A stretch of 64,000 nt of DNA, from the NCBI RefSeq assembly GCF_007570935.1, contig NZ_VLLR01000001.1, forward strand, positions 186,001-250,000, written 5' to 3'. Every line of letters begins with the position of its first letter. Position 1 is the stretch's first letter. Of this stretch, positions 49,448 through 54,046 are shown piece by piece. Source of the stretch: Lactobacillus sp. LL6 (lineage in GTDB: Bacteria; Bacillota; Bacilli; Lactobacillales; Lactobacillaceae). The notes under the pieces were generated by a model. It ran no database searches. It was not told where the DNA came from and worked only from the letters and a program-made list of their open reading frames with translations. Both the position numbers and the translations under genes were made by a program.

Positions 49448-50509
49448 ATGAAAAAGTTTAATTATCGAACGTTAAATAATTTGAAGTTAAATAATGACAT
49501 TGTTAATAAGTTAACTACAATTTATCAACTTCGTGGGGAAACTAGTAGCTATGCAATTGACTATAGAGAAGAATTAAAAAAGCTAGTTGAAGTTGCTAAA
49601 GTTCAAAGTACAGATTCTTCCAATAGGATTGAAGGAATTTGGACTACAGATGAGCGATTAGAAAAAATTATGTCAGATAAAGTAGAACCACATAATCGAA
49701 ATGAACAAGAAATTGCGGGATATAGGGATGTATTGGGTCTTATTCATGAAAATTATCGTTATATGCCGATTTCCAAAAATACAATACTTTCTATGCATAA
49801 TCAGCTTTTTAAGTATTCTGGTGATAGTTGGGGTGGACAATTTAAAGACATTAATAATAAGATTATAGCTAAATATGCTGATGGACATGAAGAAATTAGA
49901 TTTAATCCACCGGAAGCCTTTTTAGTCCCTGAATTAATCGAACAACTAAGCATGGCTTATAATGATGCAGTAGAAAAAGACTTAATGTCTCCATTATTGT
50001 TATCAGCAGCATTAGTATTTGATTTTGTATCAATTCACCCATTTCGTGATGGAAATGGAAGAATGTCAAGATTATTAATGTTGCTTACAATGTATCAATT
50101 GGGGTTTGAAGTAGGAAAATACATTAGTCTTGAAAAAATTATTGAAAATAGTAAAGAAACTTATTATGAAGTTTTAGCAGAAAGTTCACAGGGCTGGATG
50201 GAAAATAAAAATAATTATGCACCATTTATTAGTTATTATCTTGGTATTATTGTAAAAGCTTATCGAGAATTAATTGATCGAATGGGTGTAGTCCACAGAA
50301 ATAAAAACAAGGAACTTGCTGCTGATAAAATGATTATGAAAACTTTATCACAAGCTTTAAAACCTTTATCACGAGCAGAGTTAGTTGAAAAAATTCCACG
50401 CTATAGTCAAACTACAATTCAGCGAAACTTAAAGAAACTAAAAGATACCGGCCAGATTGTTACAGTTGGAAATGGTAGAAGTACAAAATATGTAATAAAA
50501 TACAATTAA
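49448..50509 (+). CDS. Fic-domain protein with C-terminal winged HTH
   Basis: Probable AMP-transferase. Catalytic motif HPFRDGNGRMSR (H197-) is intact, as is the inhibitory (S/T)xxxE(G/N) helix, S58-NRI-E62G63, placed N-terminally as in class II Fic proteins. The Fic_N region is complete, and residues about 290-353 form a winged helix (LSRAELVEKIPRYSQTTIQRNLKKL). Length 353 aa is normal. The HTH and the repeated promoter motif suggest self-regulation. Target is unknown. Confidence 0.9.
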   Translation: MKKFNYRTLNNLKLNNDIVNKLTTIYQLRGETSSYAIDYREELKKLVEVAKVQSTDSSNRIEGIWTTDERLEKIMSDKVEPHNRNEQEIAGYRDVLGLIHENYRYMPISKNTILSMHNQLFKYSGDSWGGQFKDINNKIIAKYADGHEEIRFNPPEAFLVPELIEQLSMAYNDAVEKDLMSPLLLSAALVFDFVSIHPFRDGNGRMSRLLMLLTMYQLGFEVGKYISLEKIIENSKETYYEVLAESSQGWMENKNNYAPFISYYLGIIVKAYRELIDRMGVVHRNKNKELAADKMIMKTLSQALKPLSRAELVEKIPRYSQTTIQRNLKKLKDTGQIVTVGNGRSTKYVIKYN

Positions 50510-51374: not shown

Positions 51375-51887
51375 TTGAAAATTAACTTAAAAGACTTAAC
51401 CGAAAAAATTGAAAATGAAGACTATTTACAGGATTTGGAAACTGTAAAATATGGCGATATTAGTAAATCAAAGAAGAAGTTACATGAATACGCAGATAAG
51501 ATGATTAAGGAAACAGTAGCTGCATTAAAACACAATTCCTTGATTCAGACTCAACTTGCAGTAACGGGGCAACGTCCAGCAACTTTTGCCTTAGAAATCA
51601 ATATTATTAATTTACCATATAGTAATTATAAGAAGATTTCTAATTTCTTTGAAGATGGAATTGATTATGATGTAAATGTTTATTTCGAAACGCGTTCGGA
51701 TTATGTAAATGTTTCAAAATTTAGAATTGATCAATTAGCAACAGAAAAAGAATTGCTAGCAGATCCAGATGCTATGGCTGATATTTTAACTGATTCAATC
51801 ATTGAAAAGCTTAAAGTTATTCGTGAATACCAAAAACCTGAAAAGAAAGAAACAGCTAAAAAGTCAGAAAAAACTGAAAAGAAATAA
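51375..51887 (+). CDS. uncharacterised cytosolic protein
   Basis: A 170-aa charged product I do not recognise. It starts at TTG with AAAAAGGAAAA 7 bases before; no signal peptide or membrane segment. The middle (LAVTGQRPATFALEINIIN, DYDVNVYFETRSDYVN) looks beta-rich and the end is a Lys/Glu-rich tail (KPEKKETAKKSEKTEKK). It stands alone with its own terminator. Confidence 0.65.
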   Translation: MKINLKDLTEKIENEDYLQDLETVKYGDISKSKKKLHEYADKMIKETVAALKHNSLIQTQLAVTGQRPATFALEINIINLPYSNYKKISNFFEDGIDYDVNVYFETRSDYVNVSKFRIDQLATEKELLADPDAMADILTDSIIEKLKVIREYQKPEKKETAKKSEKTEKK

Positions 51888-51888
51888 A

Positions 51889-51925
51889 AAATAATCACTG
51901 CTTAAAATCAAGCAGTGATTATTTT
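51889..51925. terminator. bidirectional terminator
   Basis: AATAATCACTGCTT pairs perfectly with AAGCAGTGATTATT around AAAATC, between convergent genes. Confidence 0.88.
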
Positions 51926-52856
51926 AGTTTTCTTCTTTGAAGTGAATTAGTGTATTGTCATTTTGATAGAAGAAGAAATCCTCAAATACGGCATTTTTAA
52001 TAATTCCTCGCTGAATTGTTTGATTAATTGATTCAGCACTATCTGGATATGGAGTTGGAAAACCAAGATTCATATAGTTTTTATTGATGGTGTAACGGAA
52101 ATAGTGCTTGGCACCATCACCGAAATTAGTATTAGAATACAATTCGTTTATATGTTTTTCTACTAATTCATCTAAATCAGCTACAAAAGTATCAATCCAA
52201 ACTTTAACATCTTCTTGTTCTTCTTTAGATAGCTTATCCCATTCTGCCCGGAATTTGACTCCTGGATACATGGCATTAAAGGATGTAGTGCGAATTGCAA
52301 GCTTAGCTATTTCTGCTGTGCGAGTTAGTTTACCATCACCAAAAATAAACAAAGGTGCATAATAATCTGCATGATAAACTGACATTTCTACAAATGAAAG
52401 AACGATTTTCTTTTGTAAAATGCTGCCCTTTAAATAGACATCTCCAATTAAAGTTGCAATATCTTGCAAAATATCAGAATTTTCAGCCCATTCCATATAG
52501 TTATTGATTTTTAGAGGATCTGCTAAATTCTGAACTACATTACTGTAGCCTTTGTTAGCAATTGATTCAAGATAACTCAATGCATTGAAGACTGAATATT
52601 CAATTTGGGTTGATGAATCCTTCTTAACGATATCATTTCCAAGTTTAACTTGCATACTTGAAATAAAAGCTAAAGCAGAAAATGATTTTAAGAAAATATC
52701 TTGAACTTTAGGGTCCAGCTGTAAAAATTCTTTTTTATCTTTTATAACTGGAATTCGTTCAGGTTCCCAAATAAAATCATTTAATCTGGACCAAGCTGAA
52801 TAATCGACTCGGTTTTCTATTTTATTCCAATTAATTGTTGTATATTTTTTACTCAT
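51924..52856 (-). CDS. ribonucleotide reductase R2-like protein (NrdF homologue) lacking most metal ligands
   Basis: Homologue of class Ib radical subunit NrdF (INWNKIENRVDYSAWSRL, ERIPV, GKLTRTAEIAKLAIR, NKNYMNLGF align well). Against E. coli NrdF the six metal ligands become S66 (D67), E97 (E98), A100 (H101), E157 (E158), T191 (E192) and N194 (H195): four are lost. The radical Tyr is kept (Y104). The set differs from the VPK/QSK pattern of metal-free class Ie. Start ATG 52856 follows the nrdI stop closely; a GTG at 52871 is an alternative. NrdE and NrdH are absent here. Function as a reductase subunit is doubtful. Confidence 0.85.
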   Translation of the reverse strand: MSKKYTTINWNKIENRVDYSAWSRLNDFIWEPERIPVIKDKKEFLQLDPKVQDIFLKSFSALAFISSMQVKLGNDIVKKDSSTQIEYSVFNALSYLESIANKGYSNVVQNLADPLKINNYMEWAENSDILQDIATLIGDVYLKGSILQKKIVLSFVEMSVYHADYYAPLFIFGDGKLTRTAEIAKLAIRTTSFNAMYPGVKFRAEWDKLSKEEQEDVKVWIDTFVADLDELVEKHINELYSNTNFGDGAKHYFRYTINKNYMNLGFPTPYPDSAESINQTIQRGIIKNAVFEDFFFYQNDNTLIHFKEEN

Positions 52857-52857
52857 A

Positions 52858-53301
52858 TTACCTATAGTCACTTAAAAAGCTAATATTTCCACGTAATTCT
52901 TTAGGTTTTTGTACCTCTTTCGTACTTTGACCCTTAGAAAGATCCTTAATGATCCGTTTTACGCTTTTAACATCTTTGTCAGTACCACTAAATTCCAATA
53001 AATAAAGTATTGGAACTTTTAGTGTAACGGATAACTTCTTTGCTGTTTGAGCAAAAAGGTCATTGAAGTTACGGTTACCGCAACCAATAATACCAACTAA
53101 ATTTTTCTTATTGTCTTTATAATTTAAAAAATCAACCAGCGAGTCCATCATAAAATCTTGATAAGATGGAGTTATTAAAACATACTTTTCTCCCATCTCA
53201 TATTGTGGCCACGCATCGTCAATTTCATGGGCTTCAAGACCAGTTTTTACTACGAACTTTTTGGTCTGCCCAGTTATTGAATAAAATGCTACTGCTACCA
53301 T
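52858..53301 (-). CDS. nrdI: NrdI-like flavodoxin
   Basis: Flavodoxin-like protein that supplies oxidant to activate class Ib/Ie R2 proteins. FMN-phosphate loop YSITGQTKKFV (residues 7-17), YVLITPSYQDF and GIIGCGNRNFNDLF are present. Length 147 aa is normal. It is directly upstream of the R2-like gene, whose ATG lies one base after this stop, so both are co-transcribed. That NrdI persists next to an R2 lacking metal sites is notable. Confidence 0.88.
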   Translation of the reverse strand: MVAVAFYSITGQTKKFVVKTGLEAHEIDDAWPQYEMGEKYVLITPSYQDFMMDSLVDFLNYKDNKKNLVGIIGCGNRNFNDLFAQTAKKLSVTLKVPILYLLEFSGTDKDVKSVKRIIKDLSKGQSTKEVQKPKELRGNISFLSDYR

Positions 53302-53419
53302 AAAAAACTTTCCTATAACTAAACTATTACAAGTTTATTTTCCCACTTAATAGGTAAGGTTTCAATTGTTAAGTGAAGTAAAAAACAATATAATATAAAA
53401 TATCTAGGAGGGCTATTTT

Positions 53420-54046
53420 ATGATTAGCTGGAACTTACTCGGAATCCTTTTATGGGTTATTATATTACTTTATTTAGTTTTTGTTGTACAAAATATTCGC
53501 AAACGTCGAATTAAGATGATTATAAAGCAGCATAAGCGTTTTAGCTGGCCGAATTTTACGATTGATATTATAGAAGTAATAATTTTAATTATTGCAACTG
53601 GATGGATGTTTAATCAATCTGCAATGGATAATCCTAACTTAGATGATGCAAGTCGTATTACTTCAAGTGTTAAATATGAACCACTTGTGATGAATACAGG
53701 AGTAGGAAACTCTAGCTATGTAACGATTAATTCTGCTAAGAAAAAGTTTGGTTCGCAAACATATACTTACTATCGTGCAGGAACTAAGGTAACTGTAGGC
53801 AGTGATTATGCTTCAGTTGCTTATGGAAATAGTCCTTTAAATGTAAGCGCAGAAAAGATTCCGTATGAATTAAAAGAACTTAAAGAAATGGATAAAAAAT
53901 ATCAAAGAGCCTATGTAGCTGTTTATACGGCAAGATATAAGCAAACTTGGCAAAATGGAATTGGACTTCATGCTGGTAGAATTGCAACAAGATATTATTT
54001 AATTAGAATTCCAGATCAGAGCTTTATTAAGCAAGCTGAAAAATAA
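53420..54046 (+). CDS. membrane protein, resembles LVIS_2131 family
   Basis: A 208-aa lactobacillus-type protein: two N-terminal hydrophobic segments (about residues 3-23 and 47-66) separated by a basic loop, followed by an exposed domain (about 80-205) with NTGVGNSSYVTINSAKKKFGSQTYTYYRAGTKVTVGSDYASVAYG. No enzyme motif is seen. AGGAGGG precedes the ATG. Function unknown. Confidence 0.7.
   Translation: MISWNLLGILLWVIILLYLVFVVQNIRKRRIKMIIKQHKRFSWPNFTIDIIEVIILIIATGWMFNQSAMDNPNLDDASRITSSVKYEPLVMNTGVGNSSYVTINSAKKKFGSQTYTYYRAGTKVTVGSDYASVAYGNSPLNVSAEKIPYELKELKEMDKKYQRAYVAVYTARYKQTWQNGIGLHAGRIATRYYLIRIPDQSFIKQAEK

Follow-up and report, generated by a model that had tools for sequence, protein, structure and literature searches.

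Introduction

In class Ib ribonucleotide reductases (RNRs), the small (R2) subunit NrdF works with the large (R1) subunit NrdE and with the flavoprotein NrdI, and we know of no role described for NrdI other than that of an activase of RNR small subunits. Class Ie R2 proteins, which are of the VPK and QSK types, are metal free and carry a DOPA radical. The R2 fold also occurs outside RNRs, without an R1, in the R2-like ligand-binding oxidases (R2lox), which contain a metal centre and lack NrdI as a partner. In Escherichia coli R2, the F208Y mutant reportedly hydroxylates its own Tyr208 to DOPA, using its diiron site. Judged by titles and abstract openings, our searches of the open-licence literature found no description of an nrdI-nrdF pair that stands without nrdE.

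Here, we describe such a pair from Lactobacillus sp. LL6 and its relatives within the genus. The NrdF-like protein, referred to here as R2L, resembles class Ib NrdF in its ancestry, locus, Pfam R2 family, adjoining NrdI, radical tyrosine, and most channel residues, but the pair lacks four to five metal ligands, D191, the R1-binding tail, nrdE, nrdH (at the locus), and an NrdR box, and the substitutions F162Y, Y163H, and A102N are fixed in R2L. A substituted metal site, NrdI, and the radical tyrosine are shared with class Ie; however, class Ie proteins keep D67, H101, and H195 and have K192, whereas R2L has lost those three residues, keeps E98, and is found without an R1. With R2lox, R2L has in common an R2 fold without an R1, but R2L is accompanied by NrdI and R2lox retains its metal centre. 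The tyrosine of the E. coli F208Y mutant stands at what we take to be the position of Y166 in R2L, which is tyrosine in all 29 R2L proteins, although the mutant is said to rely on a diiron site.

Results

Organization of the locus

The window, meaning the whole 64,000-nt stretch that was analysed, covers positions 186,001-250,000 of contig NZ_VLLR01000001.1 from the 2.07-Mb, 99.9% complete genome of Lactobacillus sp. LL6. On its minus strand, nrdI comes first (52858-53301), encoding a 147-aa NrdI-type flavoprotein (Pfam Flavodoxin_NdrI, 7.2e-33), and the gene for R2L comes next (51924-52871), encoding 315 aa when read from a GTG (Pfam Ribonuc_red_sm, 6.5e-36). Because most relatives begin at the ATG at 52856 (residue 6; 310 aa), this is likely the start, in preference to the GTG at 52871. 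Upstream of nrdI lie a 118-bp divergent intergenic stretch (53302-53419) and, on the plus strand and divergent from nrdI, a gene for an LVIS_2131-family membrane protein (53420-54046), which serves as the marker of the locus. The other edge is formed by a plus-strand gene convergent with R2L (51375-51887), whose 170-aa product, sec170, gave no match in Pfam or NCBIfam. The LVIS_2131 gene adjoins the nrdI-R2L pair in 29/29 loci, and sec170 is present at 28/29, with gene centres 0.7-3.2 kb apart.

Several other features of the region were observed. All 60 good Lactobacillus genomes gave a match to the LVIS_2131-family protein, as did the neighbourhood of the RNR operon in the 7/7 outgroup loci inspected. 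A Fic-domain protein is encoded near the locus (window positions 49448-50509; E 3.5e-18). Between LVIS_2131 and nrdI, loci of the G059, G067, and G043 groups share a AAGTATACGGTA-type element, and none is visible by eye in the window's own stretch upstream of nrdI. In one genome, G071 (L064 7546-8943), nrdI and R2L form a single 474-aa open frame, with an A7 run one base shorter than in its near-twin G069, where the run sits at the nrdI-R2L overlap and frameshifting is worth considering. As an indel or sequencing error is equally likely, this fusion was left out of the evidence.

R2L has a remodelled metal site

R2L exceeds the Pfam cut-off for the R2 family and falls below every NCBIfam cut-off (204 bits for TIGR04171, cut-off 355; 260 bits for NF007183, cut-off 320). 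Among solved structures, its best relative is 4n83 (E 1.5e-54), which is the small subunit of an RNR, presumably NrdF of Streptococcus sanguinis, and no R2lox model was among the 9 families that match R2L at E≤0.01. The first-pass annotation of this DNA had reported that four of the six metal ligands of NrdF, namely D67, H101, E192, and H195, are replaced by S, A, T, and N, and that E98, E158, and the radical tyrosine stay, and alignment with NrdF confirmed both statements for the window protein, in which the replaced residues are S71, A105, T196, and N199 and those kept are E102, E162, and Y109 (Y105 in NrdF). Further changes are D191 to T195 in the radical-transfer path, F162 to Y166, Y163 to H167, and A102 to N106, and the NrdE-binding C-terminal tail is gone, with a DFFFY-type end in its place. 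Q74 and Y146 correspond to Q70 and Y142 of NrdF, and K264 and N268 were likewise aligned.

Sites were compared between 29 R2L proteins, here termed orphans, and 14 canonical NrdF proteins in which the ligands were read. Six sites are invariant in the orphans (29/29 each): E102 and Y109, which are also E and Y in 14/14 canonical proteins, and S71, N106, Y166, and H167, where the canonical residues are D, A, F, and Y, respectively (14/14 each). The remaining ligand sites vary, with A in 15 and N in 14 orphans at site 105 (canonical H), E in 15, S in 12, and N in 2 at site 162 (canonical E), T in 28 and S in 1 at site 196 (canonical E), and N in 19, S in 9, and G in 1 at site 199 (canonical H), the canonical residue being present in 14/14 in every case. 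The string S/E/A/E/T/N, offered earlier as the signature by which homologues might be collected, therefore holds exactly in 7/29, all of the window's subclade, but does not describe the family, across which sites 105, 162, and 199 vary, as does 196 in G037, the eighth member of that subclade, with S for T. The canonical residue is retained in 44/174 cells at the six metal ligands and in 2682/6119 cells at all canonical-invariant columns. In addition, 22 columns fixed in 14/14 canonical NrdFs are fixed differently in all or all but one of the orphans, including D71S, A106N, F166Y, Y167H, and E196T.

The earlier statement that the ligand pattern is unlike that of class Ie (VPK/QSK) also stands, as the orphans have E/E/T, E/S/T, E/N/T, or E/E/S together with S71, A or N at 105, and N, S, or G at 199. 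Membership of R2L in class Ie was considered and rejected, as the ligand set misfits and the true class Ie proteins of two carrier genomes (see below) fit. According to PMC11846895, class Ie R2 proteins were selected there from GTDB via the QSK and VPK patterns, and on that description R2L would not be counted as class Ie.

The oxidant channel is largely retained

Roles of channel and neighbouring residues, as given in PMC9462851 and PMC7615503, were transferred to R2L by numbering, which places four of these residues at Q74, Y146, Y166, and Y170 of the window protein. In the B. cereus channel as described in PMC9462851, Ser162, Tyr166, Lys263, and Asn267 contribute their side chains to the lining, and Glu195 and Ser196 their main chain; by numbering, these six residues correspond to positions 163, 167, 264, 268, 196, and 197 of the window protein. 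Among the orphans, Q74 and Y146 are kept in 29/29, K264 in 28/29, N268 in 27/29, and S197 in 19/29, with T or A at 197 in the other 10/29; site 163 varies (canonical T in 18/29), and the channel-lining tyrosine at 167 is replaced by histidine in every R2L. The canonical residue thus occupies 132/145 cells at sites 74, 146, 197, 264, and 268, and 150/203 cells when the changed sites 163 and 167 are included. Read from the alignment, most of the oxidant conduit appears to be retained, with one lining residue changed to histidine throughout. The published residue roles, mapped in the same way, predict that the new tyrosine, Y166, stands beside the radical tyrosine, Y109, and that H167 is close to both.

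The new invariant H167 and the kept E102 might also serve as ligands, in which case R2L would still bind a single metal, or some other cofactor, at a rebuilt site formed, for instance, by E102, H167, and E162. Few candidate ligands are left for such a site, however, with S or N in place of E162 in 14/29 orphans, and position 167 matches a channel-lining residue of B. cereus R2b; we regard this explanation as quite improbable.

Carriers of R2L lack a recognisable R1 for it

R2L is the sole PF00268 (R2) protein in the window's genome, so that the search for a normal nrdF elsewhere, called for by the first-pass annotation, returned R2L only, and pairing of nrdI with a different, complete nrdF is not the case in this genome. 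The nrdE gene, noted earlier as absent from the operon, is missing from the entire genome, in which neither the PF02867 (nrdE) model nor the RTPR (class II) model found a match, and NrdD (class III) is present. The absence of nrdH was also borne out at the R2L locus, where a motif scan did not find it. In a search of the genus, nrdE was missing from 27/29 R2L carriers. PF02867 matches at E<1e-150 are found in the genus in G027 and G029 only, with weaker PF02867 matches in RTPR-bearing genomes. Both G027 (C57, L069) and G029 (C26, L067) encode nrdI, nrdE, and a VPK nrdF together, with R2L elsewhere in the genome; their nrdF has V/P/K at E98/E158/E192 and keeps D67, H101, and H195, and is thus class Ie VPK. 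Two further carriers, G039 and G043 (99% complete), contain the NrdI-R2L pair, and none of the nrdE, RTPR, and NrdD models found a match in them.

These results bear on the first of the two readings offered earlier, that of a new metal-free radical subunit. Taken as a statement about RNRs, it would make R2L a third kind of radical subunit alongside the known metal-free ones of class I, acting with an unrecognised R1, NrdD, or RTPR, as the retention of the radical tyrosine and NrdI might suggest. NrdD is also present in 25/29 carriers versus 15/46 non-carriers (Fisher 5e-6); however, a tree-aware view of this link comprises 4 independent pairs with NrdD differing in about one, too few to separate the association from ancestry, which may account for it alone, and R2L as a radical donor to NrdD was rejected as a candidate. 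The lack of nrdE in most carriers, the state of G039 and G043, and the presence in G027 and G029 of a class Ie nrdF of their own argue against this reading, as do the loss of the R1-binding tail, of D191 (missing from 29/29 orphans), and of the NrdR box (see below), and the mixed occupancy of the W31 site (W in 16, Y in 13). R2L is extremely unlikely to be such an RNR subunit, and the claim is not supported.

As a separate observation on the genus, nrdE, RTPR, and NrdD were all unmatched in 13/60 good Lactobacillus genomes, which would imply dependence on imported deoxynucleosides.

The pair derives from a class Ib locus and has lost the NrdR box

In 7/7 outgroup loci from other genera, nrdI, nrdE, and nrdF are consecutive, with LVIS_2131 directly divergent in 5 and 3-3.6 kb off in 2. 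In the one outgroup locus read gene by gene, nrdI is preceded by a 76-aa CMQC protein, which we take to be NrdH, and in four further outgroup loci, as read by eye, the sequence just ahead of nrdI closes with a similar frame. The orphan NrdI is closer to the short NrdI type of the outgroups (mean 50%) than to the single long-type row compared (33%). Given the shared LVIS_2131 locus and this likeness to the short-type NrdI, R2L is the ortholog of class Ib NrdF following nrdE loss.

With the NrdR box consensus, a site with ≤3 mismatches was found in the 700 bases upstream of nrdI in 7/7 canonical loci (1.7% in shuffles) and upstream of the orphan nrdI in 0/29 (2.9% in shuffles), including the 118-bp stretch of the window. 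Upstream of nrdD, such a site was found in 4/12 carriers, and the other 8 have sites at 4 mismatches, a weak level that is common (18%) in shuffled orphan stretches, the shuffles having been made for nrdI stretches only. As far as the NrdR scan can tell, the nrdI-R2L pair stands outside the RNR regulon.

Distribution and selection

R2L is present in 29/75 Lactobacillus genomes (27/60 good ones), and nrdI lies beside it in all 29, as the first-pass annotation had noted for the window, although it is broken in 3 (G010, G023, and G034). R2L itself has a lesion in G072, and the NrdI tail is altered in G027. The 46 other genomes gave no R2L match and a true NrdI match in G005 only, where it belongs to a remnant with pieces of both genes. 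Of the R2L-less loci, 39/46 were examined; LVIS_2131 and sec170 lie 18-570 bases apart in 36/39, with no trace of the pair at E≤1e-4, and the others are the G005 remnant and 2 with other spacing. Presence changes 5 times on a tree built from the two flanking proteins of 67 genomes, which served as a species-tree proxy.

The R2L proteins form one group apart from canonical NrdFs with 100/100 support (midpoint root). When a profile of 20 orphans was run against a family sample of 397 genomes that included 16/29 carriers, R2L scored at least 452 bits and other genera at most 327 bits among the matches listed, which were ranked, and order (395 genomes, 80 genera) and phylum (398 genomes, 267 genera) samples, which overlap, contained no match outside Lactobacillus at E≤1e-100. 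A strongly divergent R2L of another genus could be masked by ordinary NrdF scores. A mobile-element origin was considered and rejected, as the 20 plasmid and phage matches listed (of 427 and 595 records) are at 31-34% and, if annotated, are RNR small subunits. Viral contigs gave no match to R2L and none to the VPK NrdF.

The patchy distribution raises the question of whether the pair is a relic that has been drifting towards extinction since nrdE was lost. Its absence from 46/75 genomes, the 36/39 clean sites with one remnant, and the lesions in one gene of 4/29 pairs are consistent with this, although such lesions imply either that NrdI-R2L function is dispensable or assembly errors, some of the genomes being drafts. 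Rates of substitution point the other way. By the Nei-Gojobori method, applied to 28 R2L genes with G072 excluded, dN/dS is 0-0.16 in 40/45 lowest-dS pairs, of which a single subclade supplies many; the remaining 5/45 give 0.25-0.41 at dS 1.25-1.53, near saturation, four being between subclades and one (G004-G037) within. For comparison, three pairs of canonical NrdF give 0.010-0.039, and NrdI gives 0.03-0.13 in 11/12 chosen pairs, the twelfth being saturated. R2L is under weaker constraint than NrdF but clearly under selection. Together with the 22 doubly fixed columns and a long shared history over several Lactobacillus clades, these data make a relic very improbable; simple decay does not account for R2L, and the random decay of homologues that the first-pass annotation had named as the outcome that would refute its proposal was looked for and not seen.

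NrdI is the better conserved partner

The window NrdI lies above the TIGR00333 cut-off (85.8 versus 74.65 bits). The loop of NrdI proteins has the motif GN.N[FW], and it is kept as GNRNF in 26/26 aligned orphan rows, including that of the window. The orphan NrdI also has a C-terminal extension, ending GNISFLSDYR in the window, that is much alike across the orphans and missing from 14 aligned canonical NrdIs. In the 26 genomes with a whole NrdI, NrdI identity exceeds R2L identity in 321/325 orphan pairs (74.0% versus 53.0%), whereas NrdI is more alike than NrdF in 0/21 canonical pairs of the same NrdI type (67.2% versus 85.1%) and in 0/91 overall. NrdI is therefore the better conserved partner in the orphans, the opposite of class Ib.

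A second PF07972 match in the window's genome (G000 C2 495133-495420) is weak (24 bits) and below the cut-off; a similar weak second match occurs in most of the genus, and it is probably another flavodoxin.

The conservation of NrdI gives rise to the main rival reading, in which R2L serves as a scaffold, a structural pseudo-subunit that stabilises or sequesters NrdI or steers oxidant outward, and NrdI alone is active, for example, as a flavodoxin or an O2-consuming flavoprotein. NrdI conservation is class-Ib-like while R2L identity has dropped from 85% to 53%, and NrdI clears its family cut-off while R2L clears no NCBIfam cut-off and has lost its ligands, as would be expected of such a role. 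A scaffold, however, would have no need for Y109, E102, Q74, and Y146 in 29/29 orphans, nor for the newly fixed Y166, H167, and N106. Fixed columns also make up 9/18 functional sites versus 60/315 columns overall (p 0.002), a modest test because the sites were picked after the alignment had been viewed. On balance, we consider a scaffold role unlikely.

Discussion

Our results indicate that nrdI-R2L is probably an exapted, R1-less, metal-free, NrdI-coupled pair kept for use outside ribonucleotide reduction. This agrees with the second reading of the first-pass annotation, in which an R2 was recruited to some other flavin-linked function, and which the pairing with NrdI, the selection on both proteins, the largely kept channel, and the loss of the NrdR box support as an inference. 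In the ancestry of Lactobacillus, a class Ib operon, nrdH-nrdI-nrdE-nrdF, lost nrdE, along with nrdH at the locus, and the remaining nrdI and R2L were then probably remodelled jointly and retained for a non-RNR use. Since nrdI and R2L both remain under selection, the data suggest that the pair has put its use of reactive oxygen to a new purpose.

By extension from class Ib and class Ie, reduced NrdI would dock on R2L, and its FMN would convert O2 to superoxide or peroxide. The oxidant would presumably enter R2L through the retained channel residues Q74, Y146, K264, and N268 and meet the invariant cluster of E102, Y109, Y166, H167, N106, and S71, where two Mn ions used to be. As a first guess, the most likely outcome would be that Y109, Y166, or both are oxidised to a radical or to a cofactor of the DOPA/DOPA-quinone type, and the resulting metal-free, flavin-driven redox protein would hand no radical to any R1. 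Oxidation of tyrosine as such, at Y109 and/or Y166, is a tentative proposal made by analogy, with the chances leaning somewhat against it. The fuller version, in which NrdI-derived superoxide or peroxide builds a Y109-Y166 cofactor, possibly with H167, so that a flavoprotein-fed, metal-free R2 fold without R1 performs its own chemistry, is possible but doubtful. No substrate or third gene for the NrdI-R2L pair was found in this analysis. A DFT study of class Ie names Asp88 and Lys213 as key residues (PMC8902622), and their counterparts in R2L are S71 and T196. As both residues are replaced, the class Ie mechanism cannot apply unchanged and other proton donors would be required, for which E102 and H167 are candidates.

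The pair has implications beyond this locus. Having outlived its R1 and lacking a metal site, with most of the channel under selection, it constitutes a natural experiment on the NrdI-R2 channel alone, and it also bears on the ways in which metal-free chemistry of the class Ie kind can originate. For genome annotation, the label 'class Ib RNR beta subunit' would wrongly assign to these lactobacilli an aerobic class I RNR, which is missing in 27/29 carriers.
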